Assembly (NCBI GenBank): GCA_037043015.1
Contig: CM073330.1
Location: forward strand, 15,828,512 to 15,892,511
DNA: 64,000 bases
DNA from: Bryum argenteum
Lineage: Eukaryota > Streptophyta > Bryopsida > Bryales > Bryaceae
Reading direction: 5' to 3'
Below the pieces are notes generated by a model, which saw only the letters and a program-made list of their open reading frames with translations, did no database searches and had not been told where the DNA came from. The stretch's first letter is position 1. Each line of letters starts with the position of its first letter. A program made the position numbers and the translations under genes. Below, in pieces: positions 5,403 through 56,168 of the stretch.

Positions 5403-5403
5403 G
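5393..5403 (+). repeat. Left MULE target-site duplication (11 bp)
   Basis: GGACTGCAAGG occurs here and again at 17073-17083, flanking the MULE. A 9-11 bp duplication is typical of Mutator-superfamily insertion. The exact length is ambiguous by a base or two because the element itself begins with G. Confidence 0.85.
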
Positions 5404-7308: not shown

Positions 7309-7501
7309 CTACCAGGTACATAAGCATTGCTGTCGGGCTCAAAGTGTAGGATGAGGCAATTTCGTTGACGAAACTGCCTACTAAAAATAGAATTATTATA
7401 TATATTTTTTTTTAAGGAGATAATAATTTACGTTTATCCCGACTTAATTGTAAAATCGAAATTACTATAACTTGAAATTACCGTAGTAAGCTTTTACTTA
7501 C
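7309..7501 (-). other. Intron 2 of the MULE transposase gene
   Basis: On the minus strand the donor is CTG/GTAAGT at 7501 and the acceptor CTGGTAG/GAA at 7309. Both exons are in phase 0 across it. Reading through would introduce a stop. Confidence 0.75.
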
Positions 7502-32900: not shown

Positions 32901-33017
32901 AGGTCTTCCTCCAATTCCGCCTCATGGCGCGGAGTTCGGGGGAAGTCCGGCTTCACTGTCTTGAGGGGGATCGGCTTCCCCACTCGCCACAGCTCCGCGT
33001 TTCTCTTTCTCGGCATC
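29953..33017 (-). pseudogene. Gag-like protein of element 3, broken
   Basis: ATG 33017 starts MPRKRNAELWRV.., then ..EEDLLRMGCAGLFDVPWDM... A frameshift near 32690 precedes GFTIEDCKSNREMRLLRFLVPIFSLDKP, VVGWHHIISDVV and PLTPFIFHFYARF. A Glu-rich run (up to nine E in a row) and basic patches follow. Stop TAG at 31693 is in frame with the next part: PTPTLPRPYYRIPREGILNPIRLAMDEVEQDNRQLFTSLERL, then a heptad-like coiled coil. Another stop at 30874 and a 338-bp MITE at 30462-30799 precede the acidic C-terminal part (30423-29953). It is the same family as the genes at 5013 and 23816, and is dead by one frameshift, at least two stops and an insertion. Confidence 0.65.
30452..30809. mobile_element. 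Mutator-type MITE with 10-bp target duplication
   Basis: GGAAGGGCCC occurs at 30452-30461 and 30800-30809. Between them the ends are inverted repeats (TAGGTTGTCATACCGG at the left, AAGGTTGTCATATCGG from the right). The 338-bp body is GTCCGTCCG-rich and non-coding. The gag-like frame resumes directly beyond it. A 10-bp duplication points to Mutator-superfamily mobilisation. Confidence 0.72.
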
Positions 33018-33750
33018 GCGTCAATGATACTCTTGTTCCTGCGCTCGGTATCGCCTACCCCACTCTGAGCTACCGGACTCCTTCCGGTGGAAACCCTAGC
33101 TCCCGGAACCCTAACTGGACTCGCTAATCGTCGCTTCTCTCCGGTGTACTGAGCGCGCGGTGATGTTCGAGAGCTAAGAACACGCAAATCAAAACTGGAA
33201 TGGCCAAGAATGGTGGCGGTAGCGCTTAAAAGCCATAATCCGGAAACCTCCTCTCGAGAGGTACACCGGTCCTTTTTCCGGGCACAAGTGAGCCGCCGGT
33301 GGTACTCGCGGGCACGCGCAAAAATCCCGGCCGTTTCTTCGGGTCGACCGGTCGTCCCGGTGACCATCCCGGTAGAACACCCGGGTTACCCGGAATTCAC
33401 AGGGGAAAACCGGATGGAAACAGGGCACTCCGGTAGGCTCTAAAATCTATCAAGGCCAACCGGATTAACCACAACACCAAAATACTACCTACGGACCGGT
33501 TTTAACTATCCGGTCTTTATTTCCAAACACTAAAACTATCATTTAAACCCTAAAAATGCAATAAAAATAAAAATATTGGAGAACAGGGTTCGACATAAGG
33601 GTAGAAAGGATTGGAGTTAGTTGTCTTAGCATTACTTTGTCTTGGTCACTTCACAGAATCCCTGGAACGATACACGAGTCACCTAAACACGGGTATTACA
33701 CAAATAAACGTGTAAGGGAAGACAACGTGGATACATGGCATCCGACAGTG

Positions 33751-34267: not shown

Positions 34268-34510
34268 CAAAATGTTGATTTAGTTTTACCTCCATAAAAC
34301 CTCAGAGGGATCCTTCCTGTTAATTTGAAGAGTGCGGAATTCGGTCACTCTCTACTGGTTGATTTAGGTGATCGGAGTTTCACCGGTTTGTTACTTGGTA
34401 CTTCGTCTCTCTCTTCCGGAGTTCTTCCCTTACAACTACTTCTGCCACCCGGTGTTACCTTCAAAATAGCAGGTCACTCAAGCAATCATCCGGTTCTCTC
34501 CCTCTCCCTA
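34268..34510 (-). repeat. Left half of a split repeat (empty-site reference at 28556-28790)
   Basis: GATTTAGTTTTACCTCCAT.. to ..GTTCTCTCCCTCTCCCTA matches 28551-28787 with few differences. At 28787 the repeat continues with GTCCAATGGTA; here it is interrupted after CCCTA by the 18.8-kb element and resumes at 53331. In 28556-29563 this repeat forms the 3' region of the element-3 gag gene. Confidence 0.8.
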
Positions 34511-34539
34511 GAACACGTAATTCGTTATAATGGGAATAT
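34511..34539 (+). repeat. Left terminal inverted repeat
   Basis: 29 bp beginning GAACACGTAATTCG, perfect reverse complement of 53302-53330. Half-sites AGAGCTAAACGCGCATG recur just inside (34570-34650), and one palindrome (TTTAGCTCGACTAGAGCTAAA split by one base) lies at 34928-34948. Confidence 0.9.
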
Positions 34540-34976
34540 CCAAACTCTCAAAAACCAATCGACCTAAATTCCAACATATATATCGAGCTAAACGTGCATG
34601 TTTTAGAGCAAACCGCGCGTGATGTAGAGCTAAACGCGCATGTAGTAGAGCTAAACTGAATACAAAAGATGATGATAATAGCAAGAGAAAATGCAGCCTG
34701 ACAGCAATTTGCTAAAAGAGCACAATAAAACGATAAAGTCAATTAAACTGGGAATCGACAACCAAGTCCGGAAATGTACAAACACTTCCATTGTTAACTT
34801 TAAGGCATAAAAACCGTACCAATACTTAACTACGAATGGTAGGACTTCTAGAACGACCATTTCAAAGATGAATGTATTGACAAAAAGTCACACGATAAAT
34901 TGACAGCTCAAATTGCACTGAGGTCATTTAGCTCGACTAGAGCTAAATGGGCATGCCCAAATAGAGGGATGTCAGG

Positions 34977-37938
34977 CTACTCCTCTCCACCGTCGAACCG
35001 CTCAATACTTTGTTTGATGATGTCGATTTGACGCTCCGATAATGAAATAATAGGACGCCGAGAGCCAAGTTTTGCACTTGATTTCCATGACGTAAAAATT
35101 GCATCAGCATGAAGCCATTCCGGAATGTGAGTGTCTTCAACTTTCCATTTGAATGTCTTCTTCGTATCCCAACCAGCATAGGTTTCCTGAACAACACTAT
35201 TTCTCGATGCAGGTTGAAAATATTGCATTTGAATACAGCCTGGATAGTTGTGATCAACATCGAAATCAGTCAGGGCCCTAGCAATCCAGAAAGGACGAGT
35301 ATCCCCATCAGCTGGCCGTAGAGCTACAAAGTATCCAGCAAAAACATCTCGACCAACCCGAAAGGACTCCCTTGGTCTATCACACAACCGTCCGATAAAG
35401 TGCGGATCACGCCCATATTCTTTCATGATTCGCAAGATTTAAGAATTCTCGTGTCGCAGGTACTCGAGTTAAAGGCCAACAACCGTTCTTCAAAAATGAG
35501 GACACTTCTATAGGCTCAACCAACGCCAGCTTCACAGCTCGCCAATAGCGAATAACAAATTCATGACGCCGACCAAATTCTCCCGATATGTCCTCCGCAC
35601 TTGAAGTCTCCCACATCTTAATAAACCCTCCAATGCCTTTTACAATGTCATCACGGTTCTTCATAGGAATGGGGCGCCAAAGGTTTCATGTCACCTGTAG
35701 GTAACATTGGTTTCCCCGTACTTCGGTCCTCTTTCCACAATTTTATACCTCCATCAGTAGAAGGTAACCACTCCTTGTCTGTGCATAACATCTTATCTTT
35801 CGCATCATGGGCCATCCATTGTCATGCTTGTAAAACTTGAATCACGACCCTCCGAATGCCCAACTAAAATTTCATCTCTCGGAACCAATGTAGTCTTTGA
35901 TATAACCCTTGAAGTCGTATTTCCTCTATCAAATGAGGAATAACGGGCAAAGCCTCCGCGTCCATAAATGACTTCATCAATCGAGGAAGTGTGAGAAAGT
36001 CGTTCTCTTTGAGAGTCATGCTCCAACGTCCAAAGAGGGCGTCAATGTCTTCGTGGGTATGTCCAACTAACAAGAAATTAACGTATACTTCACGGAACAC
36101 ACCCATGTGTACAGGGAAGAGACCAAAAGCAAAACATAAATCTATTCTTGTTATCAAAAGCTGCGTTGTCGAGTTGCACATGCAGGACAGGAGGTAGAGG
36201 CTCCGCCACCCCACAAACTTCACTTTCAGGTAGAAGAGAGTTTAAACACCCTTCTTTTCCGAACAAGATGACTTCAAATAAAGGCGTGACCCCGAATTTG
36301 CGAATAATGACTTCGAATATGAGATCGGAACACCTTCTAGATCTCGTAAAAGCTTTAATATTGATCCAACAGTGTGATTGCAATCACTTGGATAAATATC
36401 GAGCCCATAATGAGCATATCGGACATCGCTATGCCCGTGAGCAATCATGCCAGTTACAGCAATTGGAAGCTTCATTAATGCATCATTTGCCTTCGTTTTA
36501 TGTGAAAATACAGAGACAGCGATCTTCGCATGATCCATTTTGTCATGTATTATACAGAGGACATCTCTCGGCCGCTGAATAGAAAGAGAACGATTTGAAT
36601 AATAATACTCACGATGCGTTTCTTGATGATGCAAATGCTCCTCTAGCTTCTTGATCCACATATTCTCTTCACATGAATCAGGTACCATAGACTTGATCAT
36701 TGTCTCCATCTATTTACAAGTTGAGCAACGAGCAAAGTTGTCCCCAGGCGCTTTCTTTGAATACTCAGAAAATTTTGACCTCCTAATCCTGCTCAGTGTG
36801 CTCTGAGAAATAGACTTCAAGCCCAACCTCTCATTGATGTCATTGATCCCTGGTATGGCATCCTTCCATCTAAAGGACGATGGCAAGGACCGCGAGACAA
36901 CCTTCTCACCAGATGTCAACATCTTCGACCGGTGGGGCATATGATCAGCAGCATTGTCAATGAATGTCTTGAGAGTAGCAACAGCTTGCTTCACGTGCAA
37001 TCGAGGTTTCTTCTGACCAACATTCCCATGGTGCCGAGCACGTAGTCCAGCTGCAGCTTCTGCCTTCCGCCTGTAAAATGTGGAAATCGGAACTCCACTA
37101 ATATGTTGCCATGCACGCGCGCAAACATCAATGCCTTGATGGTCACCATCATCTTGCCGTCCGGTGCTGATGAAAACGATTATGAACATCGATCTTGAAA
37201 TGTGATTTAAATTTAAAACCCGACGCCTCGTACATCTGCTTTCGGAGAGCCATAATTTTCTCACGAGGGAAAGGTTGGCAACAGTTCTTGCTGCAGCAAA
37301 TCTTGCTTGCAACTAAGTTGACTGAATCTAACGTCAAGAGTTCCTCCTCCCTCTTGGTCCTCACAACCCGTTGGTTCCGTTCTCCCAAATCATACGGTCG
37401 CACCCCCTTCTTCTTTGGATGATCGCGGGCATAAACAGCGACGTTAAACTGATCAACTCGTAAATGATCAAGTAGTGACCAACCCTCATGCATAGCATGA
37501 TTGAGCTTCCAGTTCCTAGTTCCATAAATGGTCTCAGCAGGTATGAACTCGAAATTCAAACACTTCACGATCTGCACAACTACTTGATCTTCACATAAGG
37601 GCTCGTCATTACTCTCAAGCATTCTTTCAGCGTCCAGAGTCTGACAAATGCCTTCACCCACAACGTCGCCACCATCGTTGAGAAGTGTCACAAATTTCGT
37701 AACCCATTTACTTCTGGGTAGTCCGGGGCAATCTTTTAAATGGTCCGGAAGAACAAGCTCAGAAGGACCATCCAAGTCCTACAAGACCACAAACATAGAC
37801 GAATTAGTACGAATGGATAAACTCAGAACAATGATGTATTATGCAAAATAAGTAAGTCCAGTACCTCCGAAAAAAAACGCCGCAAATCATCCTCGCCATC
37901 GGACTCACTCAATTCCATGATAACCTGAATGCCAGCAA
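34977..37938 (-). pseudogene. DUF7869-like probable DDE transposase, decayed
   Basis: ATG at 37915 (MELSESDGEDDLRRFFSE) is followed by a donor GTACTG (37860) and acceptor TTGTAG (37779). The next exon reads DLDGPSELVLPDHLKDCPGL... It includes a Cys cluster KICCSKNCCQPF and ..ISGVPISTFYRRK... Then follow ..IIHDKMDHAKIAV.. (first Asp region), HVQLDNAAFDNKN (second Asp) and VYVNFLLVGHTHEDIDALFGRW (the H-T-H-E-D-I-D motif I associate with DUF7869 proteins), then LMKSFMDAEALPVIPHLIEE. The C-terminus (35435-34977) has a separate beta-rich, BAH-like region (FRVGRDVFAGYFVALRPADGDTRPFWIARAL). Breaks: frameshifts near 37180, 36310, 36120 and 35880, and a TAG at 36710. The role, transposition of the 18.8-kb element, is inferred from position and motifs. 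Confidence 0.65.
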
Positions 37939-38020
37939 TAAATAAACAATCATGAGAAACCACTGGTAGCTAAATCTATGTGCAGTCAGAAATGCTTATT
38001 ACCATTAAGAATATATGACC

Positions 38021-38836
38021 ATTAAGCTCGACTCGAGTGAATGGACTTCAAGATCAAGTCACCACTACCACGATGCAAGTGATATCGTCGACCATTTAGC
38101 TCGATTCGAGCTAAATGGTCATCACGCTGCTAACGCGCCGAGGTAAGCGTGATGAACAGTTTTCTGAATGAACATTTAGCTCGACTCGAGCTAAATGGTC
38201 TTCGAGATAATTGTTTACCATTCACCGCGAAGCAGTCAAACCAGGATGACAATTTAGCATGGCTCGAGCTAAATGTTCTTGAAGATCTAAATACATTTTG
38301 TTTACCCCGAAGCATGTCGAAGGAAAGACCATTTAGCTCGAGTCGAGCTAAATAGTCATCCAGGATCAATGACTTAGCGGTAAGCGTGATGAACAGTTAT
38401 CTAAATGACTATTTAGCTCGACTCGAGCTAAATGGTCTTCAAGATAACTGTTCAACGCTCACCACGACGCAGTTAAAACCGGATGACCATTTAGCTCGAG
38501 TCGAGCTAAATGGGCATACCACTCCGATGAAGGTTAAGCCCATTTAGCTCGAGTCGAGCTAAATGGGCTTGCTGTGAAGTTAAAACTGTACGCCCATTTA
38601 GCTCGACTCGAGCTAAATGGGCTTGAACTGCTCTGATACAATGCAAGCCCATTTAGCTCGAGTCGAGCTAAATGGGCTTGAACTGATACAGGACAGTACG
38701 CCCATTTAGCTCGAGTCGAGCTAAATGGGCGTACAGTTTTAACTCAGTGCAAGCCCATTTAGCTCGACTCGAGCTAAATGGGCGGACTGCCCTCTAGCAG
38801 ATCAAGCCCATTTAGCTCGACTCGAGCTAAATGGTC
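38021..38836. repeat. Palindrome array 1 (13 sites) in a 5'-UTR intron
   Basis: Thirteen palindromes with arms TTTAGCTCGA and TCGAGCTAAA around one C or G, mostly extended to GCCCA..TGGGC or GACCA..TGGTC (14-16 bp arms). The first seven are 76-81 bp apart, the last seven 52-55 bp apart. Cores are at about 38032, 38106, 38183, 38264, 38344, 38421, 38501, 38553, 38608, 38661, 38715, 38768 and 38821. The array lies wholly inside the intron 39105-37930 of the minus gene's leader (donor GAG/GTAAGT, acceptor ATTCAG). Confidence 0.93.
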
Positions 38837-39099
38837 TTTGAGTGAGTCCTTCATTACAGGACTTCAGGAGCATATCATGCATATGTTATATGAGACTGCC
38901 TCGATATTCGTGCACAGCAAATACTATAAATCGTTCTTGGGAACTGTGCAGAAGTAAAACAGTATCTTTGCCTCGATTTCCGTGCACAACTAAACCGACG
39001 ATATCCACATTGTTATCAGGAATGCACCACGATGAACGCAAGATATGACCAATTAACAACAATCTCTTCTTATACATTGACATTGAGGATATAGACCGA

Positions 39100-39560
39100 A
39101 CTTACCTCACACGCCGTGCTTGGCGGTGCGGTATTTCAACGAAGGCCTTGGGCATCCTCAAAAGCACCACGCGCATCAACTCCAGAGCTTCTGAGAGTCT
39201 TAAACCCTAAACCAGATTTGCAAAACCGGAAGCACTAATGGTAATAGGTAGTTTAGGCTAAACGTAGTGTCTGAGAGACGAAGTGCAAAGATGCGAAGGT
39301 GCGGGAGGTGAGGCGAAGGGCAACAGAGAGCGCGCCGGAGAGGAGCGGAAAGAAGCGGGAGCGGAGCCGGAGAGGAGCGGAAAGAGCACAGGAGCGCGGC
39401 AGGAGCGAAGGAGCGGAAAGAGCGAAGGAGCGGAAAGAGCAAAGGAGCGGAAAAGAGCGGGAGAGCGGAGCAAGAGAGGAGGCGAAGCGCATAGTGCGCC
39501 AATGAGGAGAGAGCTAGAGCAAGCGGGAAGAGAAATGGCGCCAAACAAGATCACGAACTC
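39100..39560 (-). promoter_or_regulatory. Leader/promoter region of the minus-strand gene, CT-rich
   Basis: On the minus strand the sequence is dominated by GCTCCT, CCGCTC and CTCTTT words (plus strand GGAGCGGAAAGAGC repeats), from 39530 down to 39290. The leader exon ends at 39106 with GTGTGAG/GTAAGTTCGG. No protein-like frame. It mirrors the CT-rich leader of the plus gene at 43690-44070, which suggests two divergent transcription starts with matched leaders. Confidence 0.5.
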
Positions 39561-39599
39561 AAAATAGAAAGGGCGCCAAATACGGCCAGTAACGGTATA

Positions 39600-42500
39600 G
39601 AGTAAAAGCGACGTGGATGGGAACTTGGGGGGAAACGGGGAACTTCACAAGGAACGGGGAACTTCGCAAGGAACGAGGACATCTTCGGAAATTTGGGAGG
39701 AACGAGGACATCTTAGGCCAGTAAAATCATTTGAAGTTAAGTCGCGGAGAAATTTGTAATACTTCTAAAAATAGAAATTACATAATTGTAATAATAAAAA
39801 CCGGATTCGGGAGGACAATGGATAACCCAAACTCAAATGAACAAAATAATCTCATATCGGGCACTAGAATGTTAAACTCTTAATGCGCCGAATGTCAAAA
39901 ACGACATTTTGAATAGAAAGCATAACTTTGAATAGCCATATCTTCTTCGTCCGAGGTCCGTTTTGAATGATATCACTTAGGTTTTGCTCCAAATCAAGTC
40001 TAGTTTCTATTCTAAACTTTGCAAAAAGTATGAAATAATGAAATGCACTTAAGTGAAAACAACTCTTTTATTTTATTGGAACTCCAAGCATGGAGCATGT
40101 ATTATGATTGCAAGCCAATTACGTGAAATTAAAAAGAGTTTTTCATGATTCGCTTTTTCATAATCATGATCTCAAGGTGATTCTTTACAACTTTATAGTC
40201 TTTAAGCCTAGCGTTTATGCTTAATTGATTAAAATCAATAGGTGTTGTGAAGTATAATTGTAAGATTTGTATTTACTAAATTACATGTAATATTAAAAGA
40301 TAAATACTTTACACGTTGAAACTTGATTTATAGTAAATATTATATTCAAATTATTTAAATGTGATTCTATAAGATTAGTTTCTAGTCAATTAGGTGTGGT
40401 GTATCACGTATGATATTCAATTAAGTTGAATGTGATATTCTACAAATGGCCATTATAAACATAATATTCAAGATATTTATGTGATATAATATCATATAAG
40501 TATTTAGACAGTGAATAAGTTGAGAAATCATAAGTTTATTACGTATTTCTTAAACTATGTTATTTCCAATAAGATATTTTAAGTATATTACTTAAAGTAT
40601 AATACTTAAAGTATACTATATTTAAAGTATTATATTATTGATTTAAAATTGGTGTTGTTAAAATTGAGTGTCGACGACTATATGTTTTTGGAAGTTTAGT
40701 ATTCTATGTGTGATATTCAAACATAATAATATTCATTTTTACTTCAATTCTTATGCTAGGATGTTTTATATATTACACTATTCTAAAGTTATTTTCAAAA
40801 TTTTATAATGTATCCGCATTTACGCTTTTTTTTATAAGGTCGATAAGTAACTTCTATGTTTACTTTTCAATCCTCACTCTATAAGTTCAAAAATGATCAA
40901 CCTTTAAACCTAAACCTTTAACTCAATAACCAAAACCTTAATTCCTAAAATCGTTAGCCTAAATTTTATACTCTAATAGAGAACTCTCATAACGCATTCA
41001 ATCTCGTGGCGCACTCCCACTTTCCCCGGGCACATGTCTTTTCGCTATTCCGCCGTTGTTTTCTGCTGCTACTCCTCGCTCATGCTACTTTAGCTAATCC
41101 TCGCGCTCATTGAATCAATCTGATAATTGCTATTGTAAAATGGTTGCAAATGGCACATTCATTTTTAGGAGATTTGTATATTAAGCTATGAGAATCAAAT
41201 GTGTTGGTTGTGCATTAAATTTAAAATTTCGTTATTTGTTTACATGTGCCATGTTTACCCTAGCACAATATTTATGTGAAATCGTCATACCTTTTTTATT
41301 TAAATATTCTTTACTTAAGTAATAATTTTTGATTAAAGATTAAGGAGTTGAGATTAATTTACATTTAATATACTAATATGTTTTGTTCAACCATATTGTA
41401 CTATATGAAAATATATTTCTTATTATAATAAGGTATATTCAGTATTATTGAATATGCTATTATACACTATATTACTACATTAATTAATATTTAAATAAAA
41501 GTTATTATATCAATAGACTAATCTATTGTATTTTTAAATTTTTAATAATATAAAATGTCTATCAGTGCTAATAGTTGAATGTGAATATTAATAATGTTTT
41601 CTTCCAATAGGATATTTCCCTACTAAACGAGGATATGTAGATTAATAATCATGGGCATTCGTCATACATAAATTAAATGCAATTTTAATTCTGCGTATAT
41701 ACTTTATTTTATTCCGTGCTAACAGTATGCTTATTGCCTACAAATGTACTTAATGTAGGTCAAATCATTTAACGTTTTACTAATGAAAATTAATTATTTA
41801 GAACCAAAAATATCTTTTTTGTGATCTTGTATCTTACTATCTTAAGAAACTAAGATTTGCCTATGCAAGAACAAATAAAAAGTTATTTTCCAACACTGAA
41901 CATTATACCTTCATGATTTATATGGAAGCTGATTTGGAAATCTTTTATAATTAGTTACTTTTAGGAAGTTACTTTTAGAATGCAATTGGGAAATTAAACA
42001 CTTTTATCTTTACTTAAGAAAGAATACTTACGTATAGGATATCGACTATGTATATCAGAATTTCAATCAAAATGAGACTCATTCCGTTAAAATGAGATTG
42101 ACCCTATAAGAAGCTTCTTTGCAGAAGACATTTAAGAATGACGGTATTTGCTCACATCATGATAGTGGTGCATTCTTGATTATTTCCTTCTCATGATGTA
42201 ATTGGTTGCGCTACTTTGACACAAACATATTGATCCAATAGAGGAAGCAATTGCGCAGGGGAAACAAGTAAAGCAATCAAGTTATAAAAACCATCTTACA
42301 CTCTCTATTTGCCACTATATTAAATGTTTTTACTTACTTCAATCGTCATTTTCTTTCTACACATAGTTTTTCCAAGCATATAATATTTTTAACTCGATCA
42401 CTACAAATATAATCGGTGTTTTATTTATTTACATTTCACGAATTATTCTATGTTTCTTAACTTTAATTTCCTTTCCTACCAATTAAACATATTTAACTAA

Positions 42501-43450
42501 CATTTTATAGGATAATTACTCTAGGATTTAAAAATATCTTTATTCACTTTATTTTGATTACTTACGTATTAATTTAAGCTTTAACAATAGAAATGAACTA
42601 TTTTAATTCAATGCGTGAAAACAAAAACATATAAAATTAACCAAAAACAAATAAAATAAATATTTAATTTTAAAGTAAATGAAAAAAAAAGGAAAAAAAT
42701 ATACTTCCATTGCTTTCTTGGCAAATCCTAATATTTTGTCTTTAATTATCATATGACATGAATTATGATTTAAAGTTATAAAAACCACTCTCCCTCACTT
42801 TTTGCGCATACACTAGCACTCGTCTCGTACTTCAAATTATGCTGGGTTCTTGAATCCTCATGAAATTTATAGACATAGTTTCATTTGTCTTATGATATAT
42901 TTCACACTTTCAACACATTCATATGGTCCTATTAAGCTATTGTACGTATTCAAATCACCTTCTTTCCATCATTTTCTTATTGACCGCTTATTCAAATTTC
43001 GGAAAGTTCCACTTAAATGATGACACGTAGATACTTTATTCCTATGATTTATTTTATGGTACTATAATTTTTATAAGGTTATTATAAGCTAGTCTCAGGA
43101 CAACTTTTTTTTTCCTTTGCATTTTATTTATTTTTTACCTTATTATTCAAAGTGCCAATGTGTTAAAACTTTTGTAAGAAACTCATAGCATAGATATGTG
43201 TCTTTCTCACAAATTTCTAAATAACACCATCTATTTTCTAGGGTCATAATTAGTTAACCTAAAATTTAAAAATATTTTTTCTTCTCTTCTATATATTTTC
43301 TACATCTTATTCAAAGTTCAGGTCCATAGAGGTAATCTAAACTAAATCGGGAAAATTAGTTTCGACTTCTTAGAAATTATTTTGGTGATTTCTAAATTTT
43401 ATAGAGTCGTTATTACCTACTTCACATACAAAAATTCCTTTGATTCCATT
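39600..43450. other. AT-rich core of the 18.8-kb element, non-coding
   Basis: About 3.85 kb of strongly AT-rich DNA between the two divergent leaders. No frame of note, no palindromes of the TTTAGCTCGA family. Phrases such as TTAAAGTATAATACTTAAAGTATACTATATTTAAAGTATT near 40585 (given here only as position) form local AT repeats. It could hold enhancer or replication functions, but nothing specific can be read. Confidence 0.5.
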
Positions 43451-43529
43451 TATTTTTTTGAAATACATCTCCGCCCCAAATAATAGAACTTCTGTTTTTT
43501 TTTAAAATAAAAAATAAAAAATTTTTTGG

Positions 43530-44071
43530 AAATTTCCACCCGGGCAGCCCGGGCAGCTGGGCAGCCAGAAAATCGGCGGCGGGGCAGCCCGGGCAGCCCG
43601 GGCAGCCGGGCAGCCTGCAAACCGGCGGCGGGGCAGCCCGCGCAGGCGGGAGCGCCCTGCCGACAGGGTCCCCGCCCCCCCCCCATTTCGGGCTCTCGCT
43701 GTATCGCAGCTCCTCCGCGCTCCTCCGCGTCGCAGCTCCTCCGCATCGCAGCTCCGCCGGCGCTCCTTCAATCTTCTCCCTCTCCGCTGTGCTCCTCTCC
43801 TGCTCCTTGCTACGCGCCGCTTCGCCCTCCTTCGCGCCTCTCCCGCCATCCCTCCTCTTCCGCCTCTGCCGATTTGTGCTACTCGCGCGCAATTTGCTTT
43901 TGCTTCTCTCTTTTTTATGCTCTTGTTTTAGGTTTTGCTCCTCATCGTGCGAGCTCCTGCGGTCATACTTTCTTGCGCTTGCTCTTCCATCTTCGGCCTT
44001 GTTTGAGCTCTCAGCATTCCAGCATTCTTCTACGAAGTTGTTGGGCGTCCTCGTTTCCTGCTTGTTCATGT
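43530..44071 (+). promoter_or_regulatory. GC-rich repeat and CT-rich leader of the plus-strand gene
   Basis: 43540-43660 is built of CCGGGCAGCC units with two GGCGGCGGGGCAGCCCG phrases, strongly self-complementary. 43690-43900 is CT-rich (CGCAGCTCCTCCGC repeats, CTCCTCTCCTGCTCC), the counterpart of the leader at 39100-39560. The leader exon ends near 44071 at TTCAT/GTAAGTTC. Long frames on both strands here are low-complexity and not credible proteins. Confidence 0.5.
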
Positions 44072-44249
44072 AAGTTCTTACCTCTGAATTTTAGGTTTTG
44101 CATTGAGATTGTGCTTTAGGAGCTTGTTTTGTACGTTGCAGGGCACAATGTTTTCGAATCCTGCTCGAAGTGTAGTGGCTTCACGCAAATTTGTGTTCAT
44201 TGCTTCAAAATTTGTGTTTTTCTGCTAGAATGCGCTCATTCGAACTTCC

Positions 44250-45455
44250 AGCTCATTTAGCTCGATGCCCATTTAGCTCGATGTCCATTTAGCTCGATGC
44301 CCGTTTAGCTCGATGCCCATTTAGCTCGATGCCACTTTAGCCCAATTAATTCGATTCTTTGCCATAGTTCTCCATGCCAACCGAAGCCCATTTAGCTCGA
44401 ATCGAGCTAAATGGTCTCGGTTTTCTCGTTCAGAGCCAAGCCCATTTAGCTCGACTTGAGCTAAATGGGCCCGACTATACGAGGTCGAGACCATTTAGCT
44501 CGAGTCGAGCTAAATGGGCTTGACTCTGACCAAGTAGTGAGCCCATTTAGCTCGACTCGAGCTAAAAGGGCCTGACCCCATACAAGGTCCGAGCTCATTT
44601 AGCTCGAGTCGAGCTAAATGGGCTTGGACTACGGCAAGGTAGTCAGCCTATTTAGCTCGACTCGAGCTAAATGGGCTCGACCACACAGGTCCGAGACCAT
44701 TTAGCTCGAGTCGAGCTAAATGGGCTTGGACTACAGACGAGTAGTGAGCCCATTTAGCTCGACTCGAGCTAAATGGTCTCTCGACCGTATGGGGTCGAGG
44801 CCCATTTAGCTCGAGTCGAGCTAAATGGGCTTGGACTACGGCAAGGTAGTCAGCCTATTTAGCTCGACTCGAGCTAAATGGGCATGACCCCATACAAGGT
44901 CCGGGACCATTTAGCTCGAGTCGAGCTAAACGGGCCCACTACTTGGTCAGTAGTCCAAGCCCATTTAGCTCGACTCGAGCTAAATGGTCTTGGACCTGTA
45001 TGGGGACATGCCCATTTAGCTCGAGTCGAGCTAAATGGGTGACTTCTTGTCCGTAGTCCAATCCCATTTAGGCTAGACATAGGCTAAATGGTAACGGATC
45101 TGGGAACGTGGCGAGGCCCGTTTAGCTCGATTCGAGCTAATCGGGATTGACTCGCAAGGAAGCGAGACGCCCATTTAGCTCGACTCGAGCTAAATGGGCC
45201 TGACCTTGTTCCAGGTTCGTGACCATTTAGCCCGGGTTGGCCTAAATAGGCAGGAAACCTGCTATAGGGTAGTATGTCCATTTAGCTCGAGTCGAGCTAA
45301 ATGAGCTTACTGCTCTGGTACAGGTTTATAGCCCATTTTGCTCGACCCGTCCTAAATGGGACCGACATTGTTTGCGGTCCGGGACCATTTAGCTCGAGTC
45401 GAGCTAAATGGCCTTCCTGATATGTAGCAGGTTAACCCAGTTGAGCTCGACTGGG
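44250..45455. repeat. Palindrome array 2 (about 20 sites) in a 5'-UTR intron
   Basis: It starts with five to six head-to-tail half-sites (CATTTAGCTCGATGCC, 44255-44335). About twenty full palindromes follow at 48-56 bp intervals from 44390 to 45400, mostly with perfect arms. Variants lie at 45066, 45224, 45332 and 45440. Central bases alternate between C and G. Spacers between sites also contain inverted repeats (GACTAC..GTAGTC, CGACC..GGTCG). A block of about 207 bp (four sites) is repeated: the spacer GGACTACGGCAAGGTAGTC occurs at 44626 and 44833. The array lies between donor 44071 and acceptor ATCTTACAG (45555), so it is intronic in the plus gene's 5' UTR. Confidence 0.93.
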
Positions 45456-45726
45456 GCTCTATAATCTTGGCAATAAATCTAAACATGTTTGATGGTTTAT
45501 CTTGGATCGATCGCCTAGATGATGAGGACGTGCCACTGCCCCTGTAAATCTTACAGTTTGTTTCTCATTGTGTGAATGACAGTAATGCCGAGAACCAAAC
45601 AAACTGCCAGAATTGTTCAGATGGCTACAAATGCCCCTGCCGAGTCTGAAATCAACATGGAAGTGGAGCAGCAAGAGTCGGCTCCTGAGGTAATAGTCTA
45701 CTTCAGATCTATGTTCCCCCCTATTG

Positions 45727-45754
45727 TGCCCATTTAGCTCGAATCGAGCTAATT
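45727..45754. repeat. Palindrome in intron 1 of the ParB-like gene
   Basis: GCCCATTTAGCTCGAATCGAGCTAAT-type site, one per 92-bp intron (45690-45781). Confidence 0.8.
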
Positions 45755-47190
45755 CGCCCTCTATTATTTTGTTATTCACAGGTCACTTATAATATGCAAG
45801 CCTTGGAGGGATTCCTTGCACCAGTTGAAATCGAATCACCAGACGATCCGCTTTCTGCTATTTTTCTGGACGCGCAATGGGGAAAATTGTGGACCCCCAA
45901 GAAACATTCCATCAAGTCTTGGTCGATTCGTCCGTTGAACAAGACCCACTTCTTGTTTTATCAACAGTCAGGATCTCACGGGGCGTTTTTGCCCCTGTGT
46001 ACTGATGCCTTCATCGAACTTGTTACCTATGAGGATGAATTTCTCATGATCAAGTTCGAAGCAGTGGAGGTCGAAGGATTCGTCTTCACCATTGTGTTTC
46101 CCCCTAATGAAGTCCGTTTCTCCCACGACTTCATCCGGAGCTTCATGGTCGGGAAGGTCGATGCCAATCAACTTCATCACATCGACACGAAATTGCTGCC
46201 CAATCAGTCTTCTCCGAAAATCTTCGCCAGATCCTACATTCCTTACACTGCGCAGATCTGGAAGGCTCTCTCTGATTTCGAGAATGCGAAGAAGAAAGGC
46301 AAGGCTCCAATGAAAGGGCCCGGGAATCTACTGTTGCCGGCTCCATCCGGGAATGCTCCGTCGGGTCTAGGCACTCCAGAGGGAAGTCTAGGCGTTCAGA
46401 GTATGAAGCGTCCTAACCCGAATTCTTCCAGCTCTGGATCAAAGAGGAGCAAATCCTCCGGCAGCGCTCTGACGTTCATGAACCCTACCATGAACGTGGC
46501 TGTCTCTGAGAAGGACATCAAGTACGAGGAGGCGACAAAGTCTCTGGAGGACTACTGGGACAGCTGTGGAGAGTGTTATGTATTCGGTCGTGACAATCCC
46601 CTTGACGTGTCGATCGACCTCCTTGACCCTTCCGAACCAAGGTTCATCGTGCGATCTCTCGAACCAGCCGGCATCGCGCATTACAAGAACATCTTGATGA
46701 ATTCTCTTGATGTTTCTTCCAGACAAACCATCATCATAATGCCGAAGATCACAACTGCGCCTGAGGTTTGGGATTGGGACGTTTAGATCCAATCTTGTCG
46801 GTTCCGAATTATCGACGGGCAGCACCACGTTGAGGCTGCGAAACAGTTGATTCGGGACAAGAAGGTCGACGAATCGAAGGTCCTCGCCCTTCAGACATGG
46901 AAAGCCCACGTTGTGTGGCATTCCAACATCAACAAGATTTTGGACGTGTCGGCCATGGCGAACAAGACGAACAATGCTGGGACGTTCATACCTTCCTGGG
47001 CAACGAACATCATGGGCGCTAGAAAGGTCTGGGAAGACTATGGCCGCCCTGAGAAGCTCAAGAAGCCACATCGACGTGAAACACCGGTTGAATTAGATAA
47101 CCGGAAGCGTTATGAGGTATGACATTACCTCATCCTTGCATTTCCTGGTTGGCTTTGGTTGCATTTTCTGTCGACGTGTTTGGGATGTCG

Positions 47191-47214
47191 TTTTAGCTCG
47201 ACTCGAGCTAAAAC
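47191..47214. repeat. Palindrome in intron 2 of the ParB-like gene
   Basis: One perfect site (GTTTTAGCTCGA, C, TCGAGCTAAAAC) in the 136-bp intron 47117-47252. Confidence 0.85.
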
Positions 47215-48635
47215 AGCATAGGTTGTTTCTTAATAGTTTTGCTTTCCTGCAGGCATTCGCGGCTGCTATGGTGAAGAGGTTCATCAGCATCAACAACAAT
47301 AATGTGAAGGACAAGATCGTCAGACCGTCCGACCTTCGCAACGAGCTCCTCATCATCACATCTCCCGACGACGTCTACGAGTTGTGGAAGAGGTTCATCA
47401 CTGGCTACAGTCTCGGAGAGCTGATCGACCCCGACACCGAGCTCCCATTCAATCGGGCGAAAGACTGGGAAACCGCCTCAAAGAAGTTCTCTTTGAACAG
47501 GGAGTTCTTCAAGGGGATGGGGCAGTTGGACGCGGAGAACCTCGAGGTGTTGGCGCAGCACTTGCTGAACGAGACTCCGGATCGAACGTTGCCCTACCCC
47601 AAGGTGGCCGTGAGGAAGCCTGCGAAGAAATACTTCCAGTGCATGAGTGCAAAGCAGTGGGTGGAGAATCGGAAGAGGAAGAACACTGTCGCGAGGGAAC
47701 TGCACAACCTCAAGCCCTCACTCGGTTTGTTCGACTCCGAGTGGCACTTCGACGTCGACAACTGGAGGAAGTTTAAGGTGGAATACAATCTGACTCGTCA
47801 GACTATGTCCATGCTTCTCTCGGTCCCGGGCGACTCGTTCTTCACCCTCTACCGCCAAAAGCAGACGAAGAATAGGAGTGCAGCTGAGATATCGGAATAT
47901 GCAGCTGAGTTCTTCAAGAAGTTCCTGGATGTCAAAGGGACTTTTCAACCTCCTGAACCGACTGTTTACACGCGGCTCTTTCACTCTTCCGAGTTTAAAT
48001 TCGGGAGTTGGGACAAGGACTACGTCTGGAACCAATCAAGTAAGTGTGATTTAGGCTTGATTGATTTGCGAGCTGTCCCGGGGAGCGGAAGTAGAGTGGA
48101 CGACACAGAGAGTCCATACTTTCAGGAATTCCTTGATGTGTGGGCAGACACCGTGACCGATCCTCACATCAAGAATCCCGAGGTTTGGATGTTCATCACC
48201 TCCAACGTCGCCCAGAATCGCCAGGCAATGGTTTACGTCGACAAGAAGTTGAAGGACGGGTACTCTCGCAAGGCTGCCAACTACATGCCGGCCAGCAACG
48301 AGCGTTTTAACGGCATCGCAGAGGGAAAAGCTTCAGAGAAGCACTTGCTCCCCCTCCTCTTTCTTGTCAAGAAAAGCAGCCATGCTCAGAGTGTGTTGGA
48401 TGCGATTCCCTCTGTATTCTACGCTCCAGAGTTGCCCCTGTACTCGAAGCCCGGCGCGTACAGAGAACACCACCTTAGTCTCAGTGATACCGAGCTCCGA
48501 TTGGAGTTCTACTGTCGTGTGCTGAAGATGTTCTCATCTCCGGGAGGGAAGTTTCTATCGATTATGGGTGGCACAAAGCCAATGTTGGCTGGAATTGTAA
48601 GTACATTGCTCCTTTCTTTTAATTTGAATTCCACA

Positions 48636-48938
48636 AGCTCGTTTAGCTCGAGTCGAGCTAAACGATCCCATGCTCGTTTAGCTCGACTCGAGCTAAACGA
48701 TCTTATGCTCGTTTAGCTCAGGTCGAGCCGAACACTCTCATGGCTGTTTAGCTCGAGTCGAGCTAAACACTCTCATGCCTGTTTAGCTCGAGTCGAGCTA
48801 AACACTCTCATGCTGTTTAGCTCGACTCGAGCTAAACACTCTCATGCCTATTTAGCTCGCCGAGCTAAACACTCCCATGCTTATATCTCTTCATAATGTA
48901 ATTTGTTCATGGCCTTTTAGCTCGAGTCGAGCTATTTC
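48636..48938. repeat. Palindrome cluster in intron 3 of the ParB-like gene
   Basis: About eight sites in 300 bp (48640, 48672, 48710, 48749, 48781, 48815, 48850, 48920) spaced 30-40 bp, with flanks GTTTAGCTCGA/TCGAGCTAAAC instead of CATTTAG. The intron runs from donor ATT/GTAAGT (48597) to about 48990. Confidence 0.88.
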
Positions 48939-48990
48939 TTCTTACTCTTCTTATATGTTTCTCTCGCCTTCTTACGGATGTGCCAGTGAG

Positions 48991-50013
48991 ACATATGTTG
49001 TTATCGCCGAGATCGAGAAGGAGGCTTATACGAATCTTTGCGTCGGATTACCAACATCTCGACTACAACGATATCAACGTCGCAAAGATACGTCAATCCG
49101 AAGCGAATCGCGGTCCCAAGCCTTCTGCTGAAGGGACGAAGAAGGGGAAGAAGAGGATGTCTAAGAAGAAGAGCACCCAGCCTGCAAGCGACGACTCTTC
49201 CGCTTCTGAGCACGAGGATGAAGATGAAGGTGATCCTTCTTCTCCGGCTGGGATGAATTCCCCCATGGATTCAGCTGTTCCTCTGGTTTCTCCTCCCGCA
49301 ATTGACTGGGCTGCGGTGGCAATTCCGTCTAGTGCTGCTCGTGCTCCCCCTCGTGGTCGTGGTACTGCTCGTGCTCCCTCTCAGGGTCGTGGAAGCGGTC
49401 GAGCTCGGTCTTCTGCATCACATGGCCGCGGTACTGCACGCGCCCCTCCCCGCGAATCTACCAAGCGTTCTTCTTCTGAGGCGCGAGCTGGAGAGGCTTC
49501 TCGGTCCAGAAGCGCTTCTGTGCCTCAAGCACGGAGGGCGCTCGAAGCCAACTTTGGGGCCTGCGATGTCGTTGGGGACATTGAGAGCCCCCCCTCCGGC
49601 GCTTGCGACGTGGTCCTCCATCGGAAGAGGATTTAGCTCGAGTCGAGCTAATCGAGCAGTCTCCTGGGGTCGTCGACATTGGGGCCGCTGGGACTCCGGT
49701 TCAGCACACGGTTCCACCCCCGGGGTTTCGAAGGGAGGTTCGTTCAAAGAACTCGAACGATGGGATCTACCGGGATTTCTTTGGCGAAGACGATGAAGAA
49801 CTGGCAAGAAGAGCGCGTGCCACGGGATGGATCATCATCCGGCGGCTCGACTCGTCAGACCATGACGATAATGAGGGTGCGGGCGATGGCGACGGGGATG
49901 ACGATGACCAAGGTGATGATGCTGATCTCGCGGCCATGACCTTAGACGACGAGGTGGCTCCTGATCCATCCCAGCAGGAGACTACATTGGCCCCTTCTCC
50001 CCGCCGCCCATGA
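48991..50013 (+). pseudogene. Continuation of the ParB/methyltransferase-like gene
   Basis: After the intron the frame reads TYVVIAEIEKEAYTNL (strand 2 of the methyltransferase-like fold, acidic AEIE). A frameshift near 49035 follows, then ASDYQHLDYNDINVAKI in the next frame. Next come a Lys-rich stretch (KKGKKRMSKKKS), an acidic patch and an Arg/Gly/Ala/Pro-rich tract with repeated RGTARAPP. From 49603 in a third frame the reading is ..GTPVQHTVPPPGFRREVRSKNSNDGIYRDFFGEDDEE.. and Asp-rich sequence to 50013. One TTTAGCTCGAGTCGAGCTAA palindrome sits at 49632-49651 at the frame change, perhaps in a short intron or as an insertion in coding DNA. Confidence 0.45.
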
Positions 50014-50831
50014 GCCCTCCCAGGAGGCAGATTGAGAAGGGGAAGTATGACAAATGGTTAGTGAAAGGTGTTTGGAAGTACGAGGACGAGCCGGAGGATA
50101 CCAAAGTAGTCCGGTTCTATGATTTCTCGGAAGAGCCTAGTTCTCCAAAGCCTTTGAGGGCTGAGGATGATCCTCTTCTTCCTGTCATGCCTCTGCTCAC
50201 GGACGAAGGAGAGCCTTCACAACCACCAGTGAAAGTGGAAGTTGTCGCCCCTTTGCTCACGAAGGATCAGAAGCGAGCTCAGAAGCGGCAAGAGAAGGAG
50301 GTTCAGAAGGCTCGCAAGGCAAAGGAAGAAGCAGAGAGAGAAGCGGCAAGAGAGAGGCAAAGGTTAGAAGACATCGCTCGAGTGGAGAAATTGGAGTCCA
50401 CTTTCCTGAGCTCTCAGTCCGAGACCCGCATGGCACTAGGCAAGATGGAGCAGATGTTTCAGTCATTCGGGAATATCTTATCCCAACTGCCTAGTTTTCC
50501 TGTCCCCATTGCTTCCATCAACCCCGATCAACCTCGCCTCAAAGATTCGCGACGCGAGTCCACCGCCCATCGTCGCGCCTCCACAACCTCCCATCGTCGC
50601 GCTGCGCACGGCCCGACCATCGTCGCGCCTCCACAACCTCCCATCGTCGCGCCGCACAACCAGACCATCGTCGCGCCTCCTGACCTCCTATTGTTCTTGA
50701 ACCGAGATCGCACCCGCCCCATACCCTCGAGATTTCGGAGAAGCCGGCGAAAGAGGTCGATGTCCCGATTGAGGCGGCGACGACGCCGACCCACTCTCCC
50801 GTGGCTGCTACCGAAGTTGTTCCGCCCTTGA
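50010..50831 (+). CDS. Coiled-coil, basic-tailed protein, unknown
   Basis: Open frame of 273 codons following the previous segment (ATG at 50010 overlaps its stop). It begins MSPPRRQIEKGKYDKWLVKGVWKYEDEPED..., has a strongly helical charged region (KDQKRAQKRQEKEVQKARKAKEEAEREAARERQRLEDIARVEKLE, positions about 50257-50397) and ends in low-complexity translated from the CGTCGCGCCTCC repeats. The first 150 residues look protein-like. The tail beyond 50545 may be another frame of the real product. It could be an internal exon of the same large gene rather than a separate protein. Confidence 0.4.
   Translation: MSPPRRQIEKGKYDKWLVKGVWKYEDEPEDTKVVRFYDFSEEPSSPKPLRAEDDPLLPVMPLLTDEGEPSQPPVKVEVVAPLLTKDQKRAQKRQEKEVQKARKAKEEAEREAARERQRLEDIARVEKLESTFLSSQSETRMALGKMEQMFQSFGNILSQLPSFPVPIASINPDQPRLKDSRRESTAHRRASTTSHRRAAHGPTIVAPPQPPIVAPHNQTIVAPPDLLLFLNRDRTRPIPSRFRRSRRKRSMSRLRRRRRRPTLPWLLPKLFRP
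50555..50680 (+). repeat. Minisatellite CATCGTCGCGC
   Basis: Five CCATCGTCGCGC words separated by CTCCACAACCTC or GCGCACGGC-like spacers, giving a tandem pattern of about 20-30 bp. It lies within the open frame 50010-50831 and probably expanded recently. Confidence 0.7.
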
Positions 50832-50999
50832 CTCTCCCGTACTGCGACCGATGTTCTTCCTTCCCTTGACTCTCCCGGGGCTGCTACTGAGACGGCTATA
50901 ACTTCACCGGCAAATCCAGAGGTTAGTTACTATCCTTTCCTTGCTCTGCTATTCCCTCATCTCTTGAAGTTTTTGCATTTAGTAATCTTAAAGCCGGCG

Positions 51000-51680
51000 C
51001 TCCTTGTTTGACAGAGTCCCGCACCGATGGTGGCGAGTAGGTCGACGAGTAGTCTCCAAATTATTGGATCTTTGTTTCGCTTTTTGTACATAGTACAATT
51101 ATTATCGTTGTACTTATTGAAACATCATTCAATAATATTGAGACTCTTTTCTTTCAAATCAGTTTTTATCTTGGTGAGTCTGCGTCCTTCTCATCACAAG
51201 GCCCTAAACTTCGTCCTTTTCTATCGGCCCCCTTCGAATACCTTGTTCCGTCCGATTGCTTCAAAATCCCCACCAACCACCTCATGTTACCTCTGGGTGT
51301 GGCGGTTGATCATCCAAGTCTTTTTGAGTTCTTTGCATACTTGAAGATTTTGCAAGGTACACACCCTCTTGTTTTAATACCATTTGCCATTGTTACGTGT
51401 TCCCCGAATGCGGCGGAGTCCGTCCAAACATCCCAAACAGCAGATCTCGCCCGAGCTTCCCATTACGCATATCTCCCGCAGTCTTTTACGGTCCAAGCCC
51501 AAGTGGTTGAATGTGATGTTGAGCTGGATGGGGTTCTATGTTCGATGGCCTCGTGTCTACCCCAAAGCCTCGCCGAGTGTCTGTCTCTTTTCGGATCCCA
51601 ATAATCCTCCGGTGTTTTCCTCCACCGTCCCAACCTTAGTTGCCGGGAGGGTCGTCTCTGTCGTCCCGGGTTGACAGGTT
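51000..51680 (+). pseudogene. Downstream fragments of the plus-strand gene
   Basis: Readable pieces in different frames: LMLPLGVAVDHPSLFEFFAYLKIL (51277-51350, ending at a CAAG/GTACAC donor), then after ..CAAACAGCAG (51441) ISPELPITHISRSLLRSKPKWLNVMLSWMGFYVRWPRVYPKASPSVCLFSDPNNPP. These have protein character and follow each other through a plausible 90-bp intron. No family recognised with confidence. The LPLG..D..FEFF segment could be another part of the methyltransferase-like module. Confidence 0.35.
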
Positions 51681-51779
51681 CCTTCGCTTACTTAATTTGT
51701 TCTGCCACGTCCACGTCTGGAGTACCGTAGATCCTAAGGTTGTACATGGACTGCTCCTTTTTGTTCTCGAAGTCGACGC

Positions 51780-52235
51780 TTGCCTGGACTTGTCTTGGCT
51801 TCCAACCAATGCGATAATCTGTTGTTGAAGAATTACGCATTCGCCAAGTACCCCGGCACGACAAATCCCATCCTCTTAAAATATCCTCGACGGCGGTTGT
51901 ATCCTAGGAAGGGTGCCAATTTCAATGACGACAACTTGCTCATTGTCGATTCGAAGCCCGAGACTTGCATTGCGGTTCCCACAAAGAACACACTTTTCAC
52001 TATTCCGTGGAACCATTCCTGTCCCGAGGATCCAAAGTCCGACTTCTTGAAGAGGATAGGCGAGATATGTCTTTCCGTGCATTGAACGGTCCGAAAATTT
52101 CGCCGAGACTATGCGCCATCGTAGACCCACGCAAAATGAACTGTCGAAGGACTCAGAGTTGTATATGCTCTTGAGCCGTAATCTTCCATATATGTGGAAT
52201 CAGGACCGAATCAGTGGGAAGAATTTGCCTTAAAT
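51780..52235 (+). pseudogene. Further coding fragments, frameshifted
   Basis: NLLLKNYAFAKYPGTTNPILLKYPRRRLYPRKGANFNDDNLLIVDSKPE..IPWNHSCPEDPKSDFLKRIGEICL reads through 51805-52080. In the next frame ERSENFAETMRHRRPTQNELSKDSELYMLLSRNLPYMWNQDRISGK runs to 52222, ending near a donor-like GGGAAG/AATT boundary. The change of frame near 52075 marks a 1-base indel. Unknown family. Confidence 0.4.
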
Positions 52236-52432
52236 TCTTTTATCAGTGGTATTGTTCTGGTTTTTACCCTAGGAACGCTTATGTTTAACGATTGCTTAGA
52301 TCCAGATATAATGTAGATCGATTGGTGAATCCACCCTCGACATACATGATTATATGCGTTCTTATTTTGTGTACCTTTTTCATTGCACTTAGCGTCTTGG
52401 ACTCACTTGCTAATATGGTTGTGTTTATGAAC

Positions 52433-53059
52433 CAGGTTGCTGCTGTTGGACGTCAGCTCTCTCCACATGCATCATGTGCTTTGCAAGCGAATCTTGTAAT
52501 TGGTCCTTCGACGGTTTCAGAGGATTCCATTACAAGTGACGACTCCAGAACTTTCTCAGAACGAATGCGGGGACGGCTTATCTACTTTGCTCAGGACGAT
52601 GCGTCGGCTGTAGACTACACGAAGGAGGACATGGATAATGACGATGATGGTGTAGTCAACAGTCCCCCTATTGAGATTCAACCAGTTATTGCAACCGGCA
52701 ATGATCGAATCGGTGTTATGACTCGGTTGTTGCGGCACCCCCAAGGTGATCTTTGATCCCGCAACCCCGTCGTCGACGCCCGTGCCTATTTAGCTCGTCT
52801 CGAGCTAAATAGTTCCTTGCCAAATACTGGGGCTCATTGCTCCTTATCTCTTGGGGCAAACACTCGCGTTCATCCAACACGATTTTCGACTGAGTCTCAC
52901 CGTCTATTACGGAGACATGCACCGAAGCGTCGTAGAAGTGGTGGGCTTATGGAGATGGACGAACCTGCCTTCTCTAAATACACTCGTAGTGACGACCCTC
53001 GATTCACTAAGAATGATACTTCTGGTGATACCTCTTCTCCGCCACGTCGTAATTGGTAG
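52433..53059 (+). pseudogene. Last exons of the plus-strand gene
   Basis: The acceptor ATGAACCAG (52435) opens VAAVGRQLSPHASCALQANLVIGPSTVSEDSITSDDSRTFSERMRGRLIYFAQDD.. to a frameshift near 52710, then ..VVAAPPKVIFDPATPSSTPVP. A palindrome with imperfect centre lies at 52787-52810. The final frame 52866-53059 reads RVHPTRFSTESHRLLRRHAPKRRRSGG...SGDTSSPPRRNW and stops. AATAAATT at 53101 and GAATAAAAT at 53127 are polyadenylation-signal candidates 40-70 bp later. Confidence 0.4.
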
Positions 53060-53301
53060 ATTAATTTAGTGCCTACCTGTTGGAGGTCTACAATTACACC
53101 AATAAATTGTATTTGTGCTTTCATATGAATAAAATTTACTCTTGGGGTAGCATATTTCTTAGCTTGCGTTTTGAAATCTTTACTAGTATTGTCTTTTATA
53201 TTGAGAAAATTCATCGTTATCAGTAAAAACCTGGTGATTTGGTAACTAATCAGGTCAGAATCGATCTAAATGGAAGTCTCCCTAATTACCAAAATCAGTA
53301 T

Positions 53302-53330
53302 ATATTCCCATTATAACGAATTACGTGTTC
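53302..53330 (-). repeat. Right terminal inverted repeat
   Basis: Perfect reverse complement of 34511-34539. Confidence 0.9.
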
Positions 53331-56119: not shown

Positions 56120-56168
56120 TGGAGTGTTGAGATACTCAGAAGTCGAGTAGAAGCCCTACGTAAACAAA

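Follow-up and report, generated by a model that had tools for sequence, protein, structure and literature searches.

Transposons of the CACTA, hAT and Mutator groups carry subterminal repeats to which their transposases bind, and the VANDAL elements are Mutator-like. Passages of two papers on VANDAL elements of Arabidopsis describe VANC proteins that bind motif arrays in the non-coding parts of these elements, introns of their own genes included, and remove silencing (PMC5735166, PMC10398659). The same passages state that the arrays differ between related VANDAL families, name DUF1985 and DUF287 as VANC domains and place VANC-type repeats also upstream of VANA21. Part of a further paper reports that 11-20 intronic copies of the motif TTNGATYTG near the start raise expression in Arabidopsis, that six copies work in exons and that upstream copies do not (PMC6760150). 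Here we analyse a stretch of 64,000 nucleotides from the moss Bryum argenteum (assembly GCA_037043015.1, contig CM073330.1, positions 15,828,512 to 15,892,511 of the forward strand; hereafter the window, with coordinates counted from its first letter), in which an 18.8-kb DNA transposon carries dense arrays of a 21-bp palindromic core in what appear to be the leader introns of its two divergent genes. Analyses of its copies and relatives across the genome suggest that these palindromes may be recognition sites for a protein of the transposon's own machinery.

Results

The preliminary description of this locus had recognised two divergent genes with palindrome arrays; both genes are present, and they turn out to be the two halves of a single DNA transposon at 34512..53329 (no strand assigned), which we call the subfamily A copy. 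Gene 1 lies at 34977..37924 on the minus strand and gene 2 at 45583..53060 on the plus strand. In flank searches made as DNA, with 39 non-self copies scored per end, the left break fell at 34501-34512 in all 39 copies and the right break at 53329-53334 in 35 of them, or in 36 when one copy is counted through its second piece; the remaining three right ends lay at 53042, 53303 and 53343, and one copy had two short extra pieces past the end. Terminal inverted repeats of 28 bp, perfectly matched to each other, occupy 34512..34539 (plus strand) and 53302..53329 (minus strand), and a 4-bp target duplication, CTAG, stands on both sides of the element at 34508-34511 and 53330-53333. Across the searched genome (258.8 Mb, 25 contigs), allowing up to two mismatches, the inverted repeat is matched 464 times forward and 458 times in reverse, and its reversed control sequence has no match at that threshold. 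Dispersed copies, shared breakpoints, perfect inverted ends and a duplication of fixed length identify the element as a terminal inverted repeat DNA transposon.

We counted 78 occurrences of TTTAGCTCGA in the window, where shuffles lead one to expect 0.18. Scanning the window for the 27-bp form CCATTTAGCTCGANTCGAGCTAAATGG with up to 7 substitutions gave array 1 at 38019..38834, with 13 copies, and array 2 at 44388..45411, with 19 copies whose central base mostly alternates between G and C; being palindromic, neither is assigned a strand. About 33 perfect palindromes had been announced for these two arrays. The total is 32, and the exact 21-bp core TTTAGCTCGANTCGAGCTAAA is present in 26 (11/13 in array 1 and 15/19 in array 2), so that "perfect" holds for most of them only; the consensus arms extend 13-16 bp. 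The spacing is as first described, near 53 bp in array 2 and both near 53 bp and 73-80 bp in array 1, where the wider class makes up half. The idea that arms are kept while spacers drift needs amending on the side of the spacers, many of which are copies of one another in both orientations (for example 44515-44545 and 44931-44963, or 38564-38596 and 38726-38757). Because each palindrome is its own inverse, recombination between two of them would either remove the intervening spacer or turn it around, and flips without loss of a palindrome are to be expected. Half-sites occur in two further places: five 16-bp repeats, CATTTAGCTCGATGCC, line the 5' side of the gene-2 leader intron at 44254..44333 (plus strand), and tandem half-sites (GTTTAGCTC...), read directly in the sequence, are found in a left subterminal position at 34583..34660 (minus strand). 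From the end of array 1 (38834) to the half-site repeats (44254), the scan found no palindrome at 7 or fewer substitutions.

The placement of both arrays in leader introns, proposed from the window alone, is supported by conserved splice-like sites. The putative gene-1 leader intron spans 37925..39105 on the minus strand; of 25 aligned loci, one of them the window's own copy (L033), 24 retain its 3' CAG and all 25 the start ATG, and the 5' GT is kept in all four covered rows, which represent two independent copies. For gene 2, the leader intron is placed at 44070..45582 on the plus strand, with a short additional 5' exon possible. Here the 3' CAG and the GT of the next intron are kept in 5/5 rows, all from one other copy; in that one copy covered, the next intron (45690..45781) ends in TAG instead of CAG. 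This short coding intron of gene 2 (plus strand) holds one palindrome at 45730-45756. Another palindrome (47189..47215) lies in the following gene-2 intron, placed from the reading frames, and a short array (48639..48939) with flanks TCG..CGA and TG..CA lies in a further putative one. The palindrome was thus rightly said to recur in coding-region introns, and it is also found beyond them. One copy (49629..49655, plus strand) is in frame within a stretch that reads as coding (..DLARVELIEQ..), with a palindrome at the matching place in the locus L025; another (52786..52812, plus strand) is in frame in a coding-looking stretch (..YLARLELNSS..) after an in-frame TGA at 52757; and a solitary palindrome with one fixed asymmetry lies in the gene-1 3' untranslated region (3'UTR) at 34924..34950. 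As read from these positions, the palindrome marks the transcribed region and not introns alone. The palindrome is open in two of its three frames, and it reads LAR(V/L)EL in both gene-2 coding-looking stretches.

The genome contains 5,878 occurrences of the exact core and none of its reversed control. We tested the tie to the element on the first 100 places listed, which cover the first 1.3 Mb of the contig labelled C1; places past these were covered through fetched loci. Eighty-one of the 100 are tied to copies or relatives of the element: 72 are in fetched loci that contain element genes or leader DNA homologous to that of the element, and nine (C1:1217057-1229268) are no more than about 3 kb away from scored gene matches. 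None of the 81 is shown in a host gene. The other 19 fall outside this test, at about 6.6-12 kb from tied arrays (17 at C1:820442-826083 and two at 1313701-1313801). Co-occurrence with the gene family, which had been suggested as a check, is what we find for the 81 tied places, and random scatter is not seen among them. The gene-1 exon itself gave 1,123 first-look candidate places genome-wide, 150 of which were scored. By eye, 114 of the 150 scored matches are on C1 (44.1 Mb, 17% of the genome), a contig that resembles a transposon-rich, possibly sex-linked chromosome. A PsaD exon is nearest to the PDB chains 9vfj, 7ksq, 8htu and 6l35, of which the last three belong to the moss Physcomitrium, and this makes a bryophyte source, perhaps a moss, likely.

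The element belongs to a wider set of subfamilies. The same exact core is found in subfamily C (gene-1 identity 48%, gene-2 identity 31%), subfamily D (40-54% and 22%) and subfamily E (gene-2 identity 34%), and it is the symmetric flanks that vary: CCA..TGG in A, CAG..CTG in C and D, and AG..CT in E. The sister subfamily B, represented by a copy at C1:30986-53711 with the 4-bp target duplication AAAA, has nearly the same ends as A (one base differs of 20 compared) and an identity of 73-79% in gene 1 and 58-59% in gene 2, broken protein rows having been dropped from the gene-2 comparison and from a further one. In the same two leader introns it carries arrays of a different 30-bp unit that retains no more than the outline TTTAG-N11-CTAAA; the unit is in sense orientation in 29/29 hits on the gene-1 side and 17/17 on the gene-2 side, with no hits in the 6.7 kb between the two arrays. 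The array and its location are conserved between A and B, and the hairpin is not. Recognition of the ends can be separated from the array motif, since B has almost the same ends as A and a different unit in its arrays.

Searches further afield gave nothing alike. A viral contig collection held no exact palindrome, and a prokaryote genome collection held three single copies, which we take as chance. Among the open-licence papers listed for palindromic intron arrays, autoregulatory motif arrays, moss palindromes and large transposons with 4-bp duplications, none described a comparable arrangement; two motif strings searched in the same literature returned, among the matches listed, apparently unrelated primer or sequence matches only.

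To assess conservation, we counted differing cells in alignments of copies. At the solitary 3'UTR palindrome, an alignment of 16 copies (of 28 hits, 12 dropped for coverage) differed in 1/336 core cells compared with 134/3,412 outside. Across 30 aligned loci, about 28 of them covering the site, 16/594 core cells were changed (14/538 non-CpG and 2/56 CpG), against 433/4,959 around it (418/4,791 and 15/168). For the edge of the array in the gene-1 leader intron, three of 25 hits were dropped for coverage, and the 22 copies kept gave 59/1,082 non-CpG changes in cores and 434/3,913 elsewhere (0.055 vs 0.111), with 7/260 vs 49/308 at CpG positions; CpG counts in a second alignment of this edge were 39/317 in cores vs 81/371. 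The core thus changes less than its surroundings by cell counts, and not by variable-site counts, so that the part of the preliminary description that held arms to be better kept than spacers stands in the former sense.

A gene-less 161-bp element with the same inverted repeats carries the palindrome as well. A first look gave 701 candidates for it, and 40 of them were scored; identical 4-bp duplications flank 17 of 22 copies and are lacking in five of the 22. All 20 fetched copies contain one palindrome of the same form, exact in 13; two further copies, in which the palindrome is shortened (L002) or degenerate (L069), were left out of the 20 counted for conservation. Non-CpG cells differed in 2/340 cases in the core, 14/960 in the inverted repeats and 38/1,640 at other internal bases (core versus other internal bases, indicative P 0.035); CpG cells differed in 5/80, 22/160 and 4/40, the last figure referring to the rest of the element. 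The gene-less flank type with an exact core occurs 54 times in the genome, and none of these 54 exact-context copies is on C1. The excluded copy at L069:1089-1254, with a TTAA duplication, is a nested insertion between the genes of a subfamily C element. An even-length palindrome, TTTAGCTCGAGCTAAA, was also considered and dropped, as it has only two places, one of them the old gene-less copy L002.

We then compared the palindromes as RNA and as DNA. Folded as RNA, with 25 mononucleotide shuffles each, the subfamily A arrays are extremely stable (z scores of -46 and -31), whereas the subfamily B arrays gave -4.9 and +0.6 and an intergenic control -0.6. No Rfam family matched at gathering score. 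Among 246 distinct palindromes, with gene-less, B and duplicate overlapping loci excluded, the flanks pair above the expectation from composition at positions 1 (226/246), 2 (183/246), 4 (111/246) and 5 (191/246), hardly above it at position 3 (157/246, 58% expected) and not above it at position 6 (72/246, 33% expected); this symmetry lies mainly between subfamilies. Within ten arrays comprising 128 palindromes, permuting the right arms revealed no overall covariation: observed pairing was 1,716/2,048 cells, compared with a mean of 1,710.6, a level reached by 517 of 2,000 permutations, and position -4 alone of 16 was nominally above (P 0.033). This is as expected if each half-site is kept independently, a pattern that would fit a dimeric binding site and not a selected hairpin. 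Because the subfamily B arrays are not hairpins and compensatory arm changes are absent within arrays, RNA hairpins are disfavoured.

CpG decay differed in the direction expected for a lightly methylated element. The odds were 1.35 in the gene-1 coding region of full elements, 1.98 in the gypsy control and 3.7 in gene-less copies, and 1.32 in the 3'UTR, where the value is not significant. The low decay in full elements may be a hint of low methylation, in a comparison whose effect is small and whose sets differ in age and chromosome.

As to the proteins, gene 1 encodes a DUF7869 protein (PF25273) and is a probable transposase. Its frame is broken in the window copy, where one stretch matches the family at E 8e-17; elsewhere in the genome open frames reach 958 amino acids, and an 872-amino-acid frame of a relative matches at E 3e-42. 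A sub-threshold Pfam match to an Xre-like helix-turn-helix (E 0.0077) was seen as well. A PDB sequence search with gene 1 returned no match, and a search of open-licence papers found none on DUF7869. Gene 2, traced from open frames and relatives, is frame-broken in places. Seven of its open frames, all of at least 120 amino acids, were scanned and had no Pfam family above cut-off, the weak matches (E 0.049-0.57) being unrelated, and its core had no NCBIfam match. Its PDB matches to an arginine methyltransferase (E 0.15) and a hydrolase (E 0.39) are too weak and unrelated, and we do not believe them. No ParB family is among the Pfam hits for the scanned gene-1 and gene-2 frames, which are part of all their frames.

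Several other features neighbour the transposon. A gypsy-type long terminal repeat element at 56151-61724 encodes a polyprotein with reverse transcriptase, RNase H and an integrase zinc domain, and has a CpG observed/expected ratio of 0.75, compared with 0.91-1.13 for the transposon's parts. Another long divergent pair of open frames, acidic and of low complexity, occupies 24026-27067 and 29953-33385, with no Pfam match above cut-off in the two pieces scanned; by eye, one end of this pair resembles a frame at 4947-5441. On the minus strand at 5860-11111, a SWIM-like cysteine/histidine stretch gives the look, again by eye, of a Mutator-type transposase, with no Pfam match at E 0.01.

Discussion

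We propose that the transposon's own machinery includes a dimeric DNA-binding protein with sequence specificity, that the palindromes serve as its recognition sites in many copies, and that its binding keeps the element active and under its own control; on the sequence evidence we put this at about an even chance. The sites are dense in the leader introns, shortly after both likely promoters, and sparse in the rest of the transcribed region, with half-sites near the left end. A dimeric protein encoded by gene 1 or gene 2 might bind these arrays, and binding could keep the element active under its own control, in the way that VANC does for VANDAL elements by stripping silencing marks at motif arrays; the outcome may be anti-silencing or autoregulation. 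Of the functions first suggested for the palindromes, sites for the element's own protein are the best reading, given the link to the family in the places checked, the conservation and half-sites kept without pairing; a ParB- or centromere-like role has nothing in its favour but the look of the array. A narrower version is possible, although we lean against it: an anti-silencing or self-activation system arisen independently of VANC in a bryophyte-like genome, in which a protein of a DUF7869 transposon binds a 21-bp palindrome in both leader introns, the site serves as a common "address" of distant families, and both introns of the sister subfamily have moved to a new address.

Several observations count against this proposal. 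The core does not diverge alongside the proteins, contrary to what coevolution of a binder and its site would give; subfamily B is the closest by protein and yet has the most different motif; and the helix-turn-helix-like stretch of gene 1 does not sort clearly with motif type. The conservation evidence also has its weak points: counted by variable sites, the 3'UTR contrast is 13/19 vs 147/176 (P 0.12, not significant), and in the second alignment of the leader-array edge, where the repeats misalign, the non-CpG contrast shrinks to 159/1,309 vs 788/5,292 (0.121 vs 0.149). Moreover, the copies are related and their cells not independent, which makes all P values indicative only. Finally, no palindrome was found upstream of the genes (38834-44254), whereas the passages on VANC report repeats upstream of VANA21.

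The main rival explanation is that the arrays act like intron-mediated enhancement, with a host factor reading motifs that are transcribed over roughly the first 1-1.5 kb after the start and that boost both genes. We consider this unlikely, if the strongest of the alternatives. The arrays occupy leader introns at distances from a few hundred bases up to about 1.5 kb past the probable starts, with no palindrome upstream in the A window and no unit between the B arrays, and an identical core despite very different proteins fits a host reader and is better explained by it than by an element-encoded binder. Intronic TTNGATYTG copies provide an Arabidopsis precedent in the part of the paper concerned (PMC6760150), but the motif described there, of 9 bp, does not resemble an exact and symmetric site of 21 bp; the places tied among the first 100 listed are in the element family, with none shown in a host gene, and gene-less derivatives, the 3'UTR and positions far downstream contain palindromes as well. 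These derivatives, which retain the palindrome together with the same ends, and the half-sites adjoining the left end would instead suit internal transposase-binding sites for mobilisation itself, similar to subterminal repeats and amplified inside introns. That both main arrays are more than 3 kb from the ends, and that subfamily B nearly shares the ends and not the array motif, makes such a role decidedly improbable in our view.

Intronic RNA hairpins, whether for splicing control or as precursors of small RNAs, were among the first suggestions and have become very unlikely. The folding stability of the A arrays, the symmetric pairing of the flanks at positions 1 and 2 and the nominal excess at position -4 speak for them, but the closest subfamily fills the same introns with arrays of little or no RNA structure, re-dealt right arms pair equally well overall, no Rfam family was matched, and the flank symmetry is a difference between subfamilies of the kind that any symmetric binding site would show. 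It is also conceivable that the palindrome has no function, being a selfish or mutational repeat that is tandemly duplicated, flipped by recombination and tolerated in introns. Recombination does act on the arrays, as spacers copied and inverted between palindromes attest, and the site-level conservation test is not significant; however, core conservation by cell counts at the solitary copy and in gene-less derivatives, the absence of the palindrome from AT-rich intergenic DNA and the presence of a different unit at the same introns in subfamily B leave us giving this explanation hardly any credence.

If an element-encoded protein does bind the arrays, the transposon would be a further plant case of sequence-specific self-protection, with a gene set unlike that of VANDAL, and it could supply a DNA address that is long and highly specific and comes with its own binder. 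If a host factor reads them instead, the locus would be an example of a transposon equipping its introns with a strong expression array. Either way, one motif kept across distant families and another switched in a sister subfamily amount to a natural experiment.

Among known systems, three invite comparison. Promoter-proximal introns with multiple motif copies are shared with intron-mediated enhancement as described in part for TTNGATYTG (PMC6760150), although the present motif is much longer, symmetric and tied to one transposon family wherever checked. With the subterminal repeats of CACTA, hAT and Mutator elements the transposon shares multiple motif copies within the element, partly near one end and kept in a gene-less derivative, but its main arrays are internal, in leader introns, and the sister subfamily nearly shares the ends and not the motif. 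The nearest parallel is with VANC and VANDAL (VANDAL21 Hiun and VANDAL6 of Arabidopsis), which may work in a similar way, the likeness being claimed in that sense only, for an element known here from its sequence. The differences are that gene 1 carries DUF7869 while VANDAL elements are Mutator-like, that neither DUF1985 nor DUF287, the domains named in the VANC passages, appears in the seven gene-2 frames scanned, that the motif is a 21-bp palindrome where VANC motifs are described there as 9-bp and one-way, and that the core is common to very distant families. On the other side, both are multi-gene DNA transposons with dense arrays of a short motif in their non-coding parts, introns included, the arrays differ between related families in both, as between A and B here, and in both the motif is arrayed in the element and rare elsewhere, here as judged from the 81 tied places among the first 100 listed and from the fetched loci.

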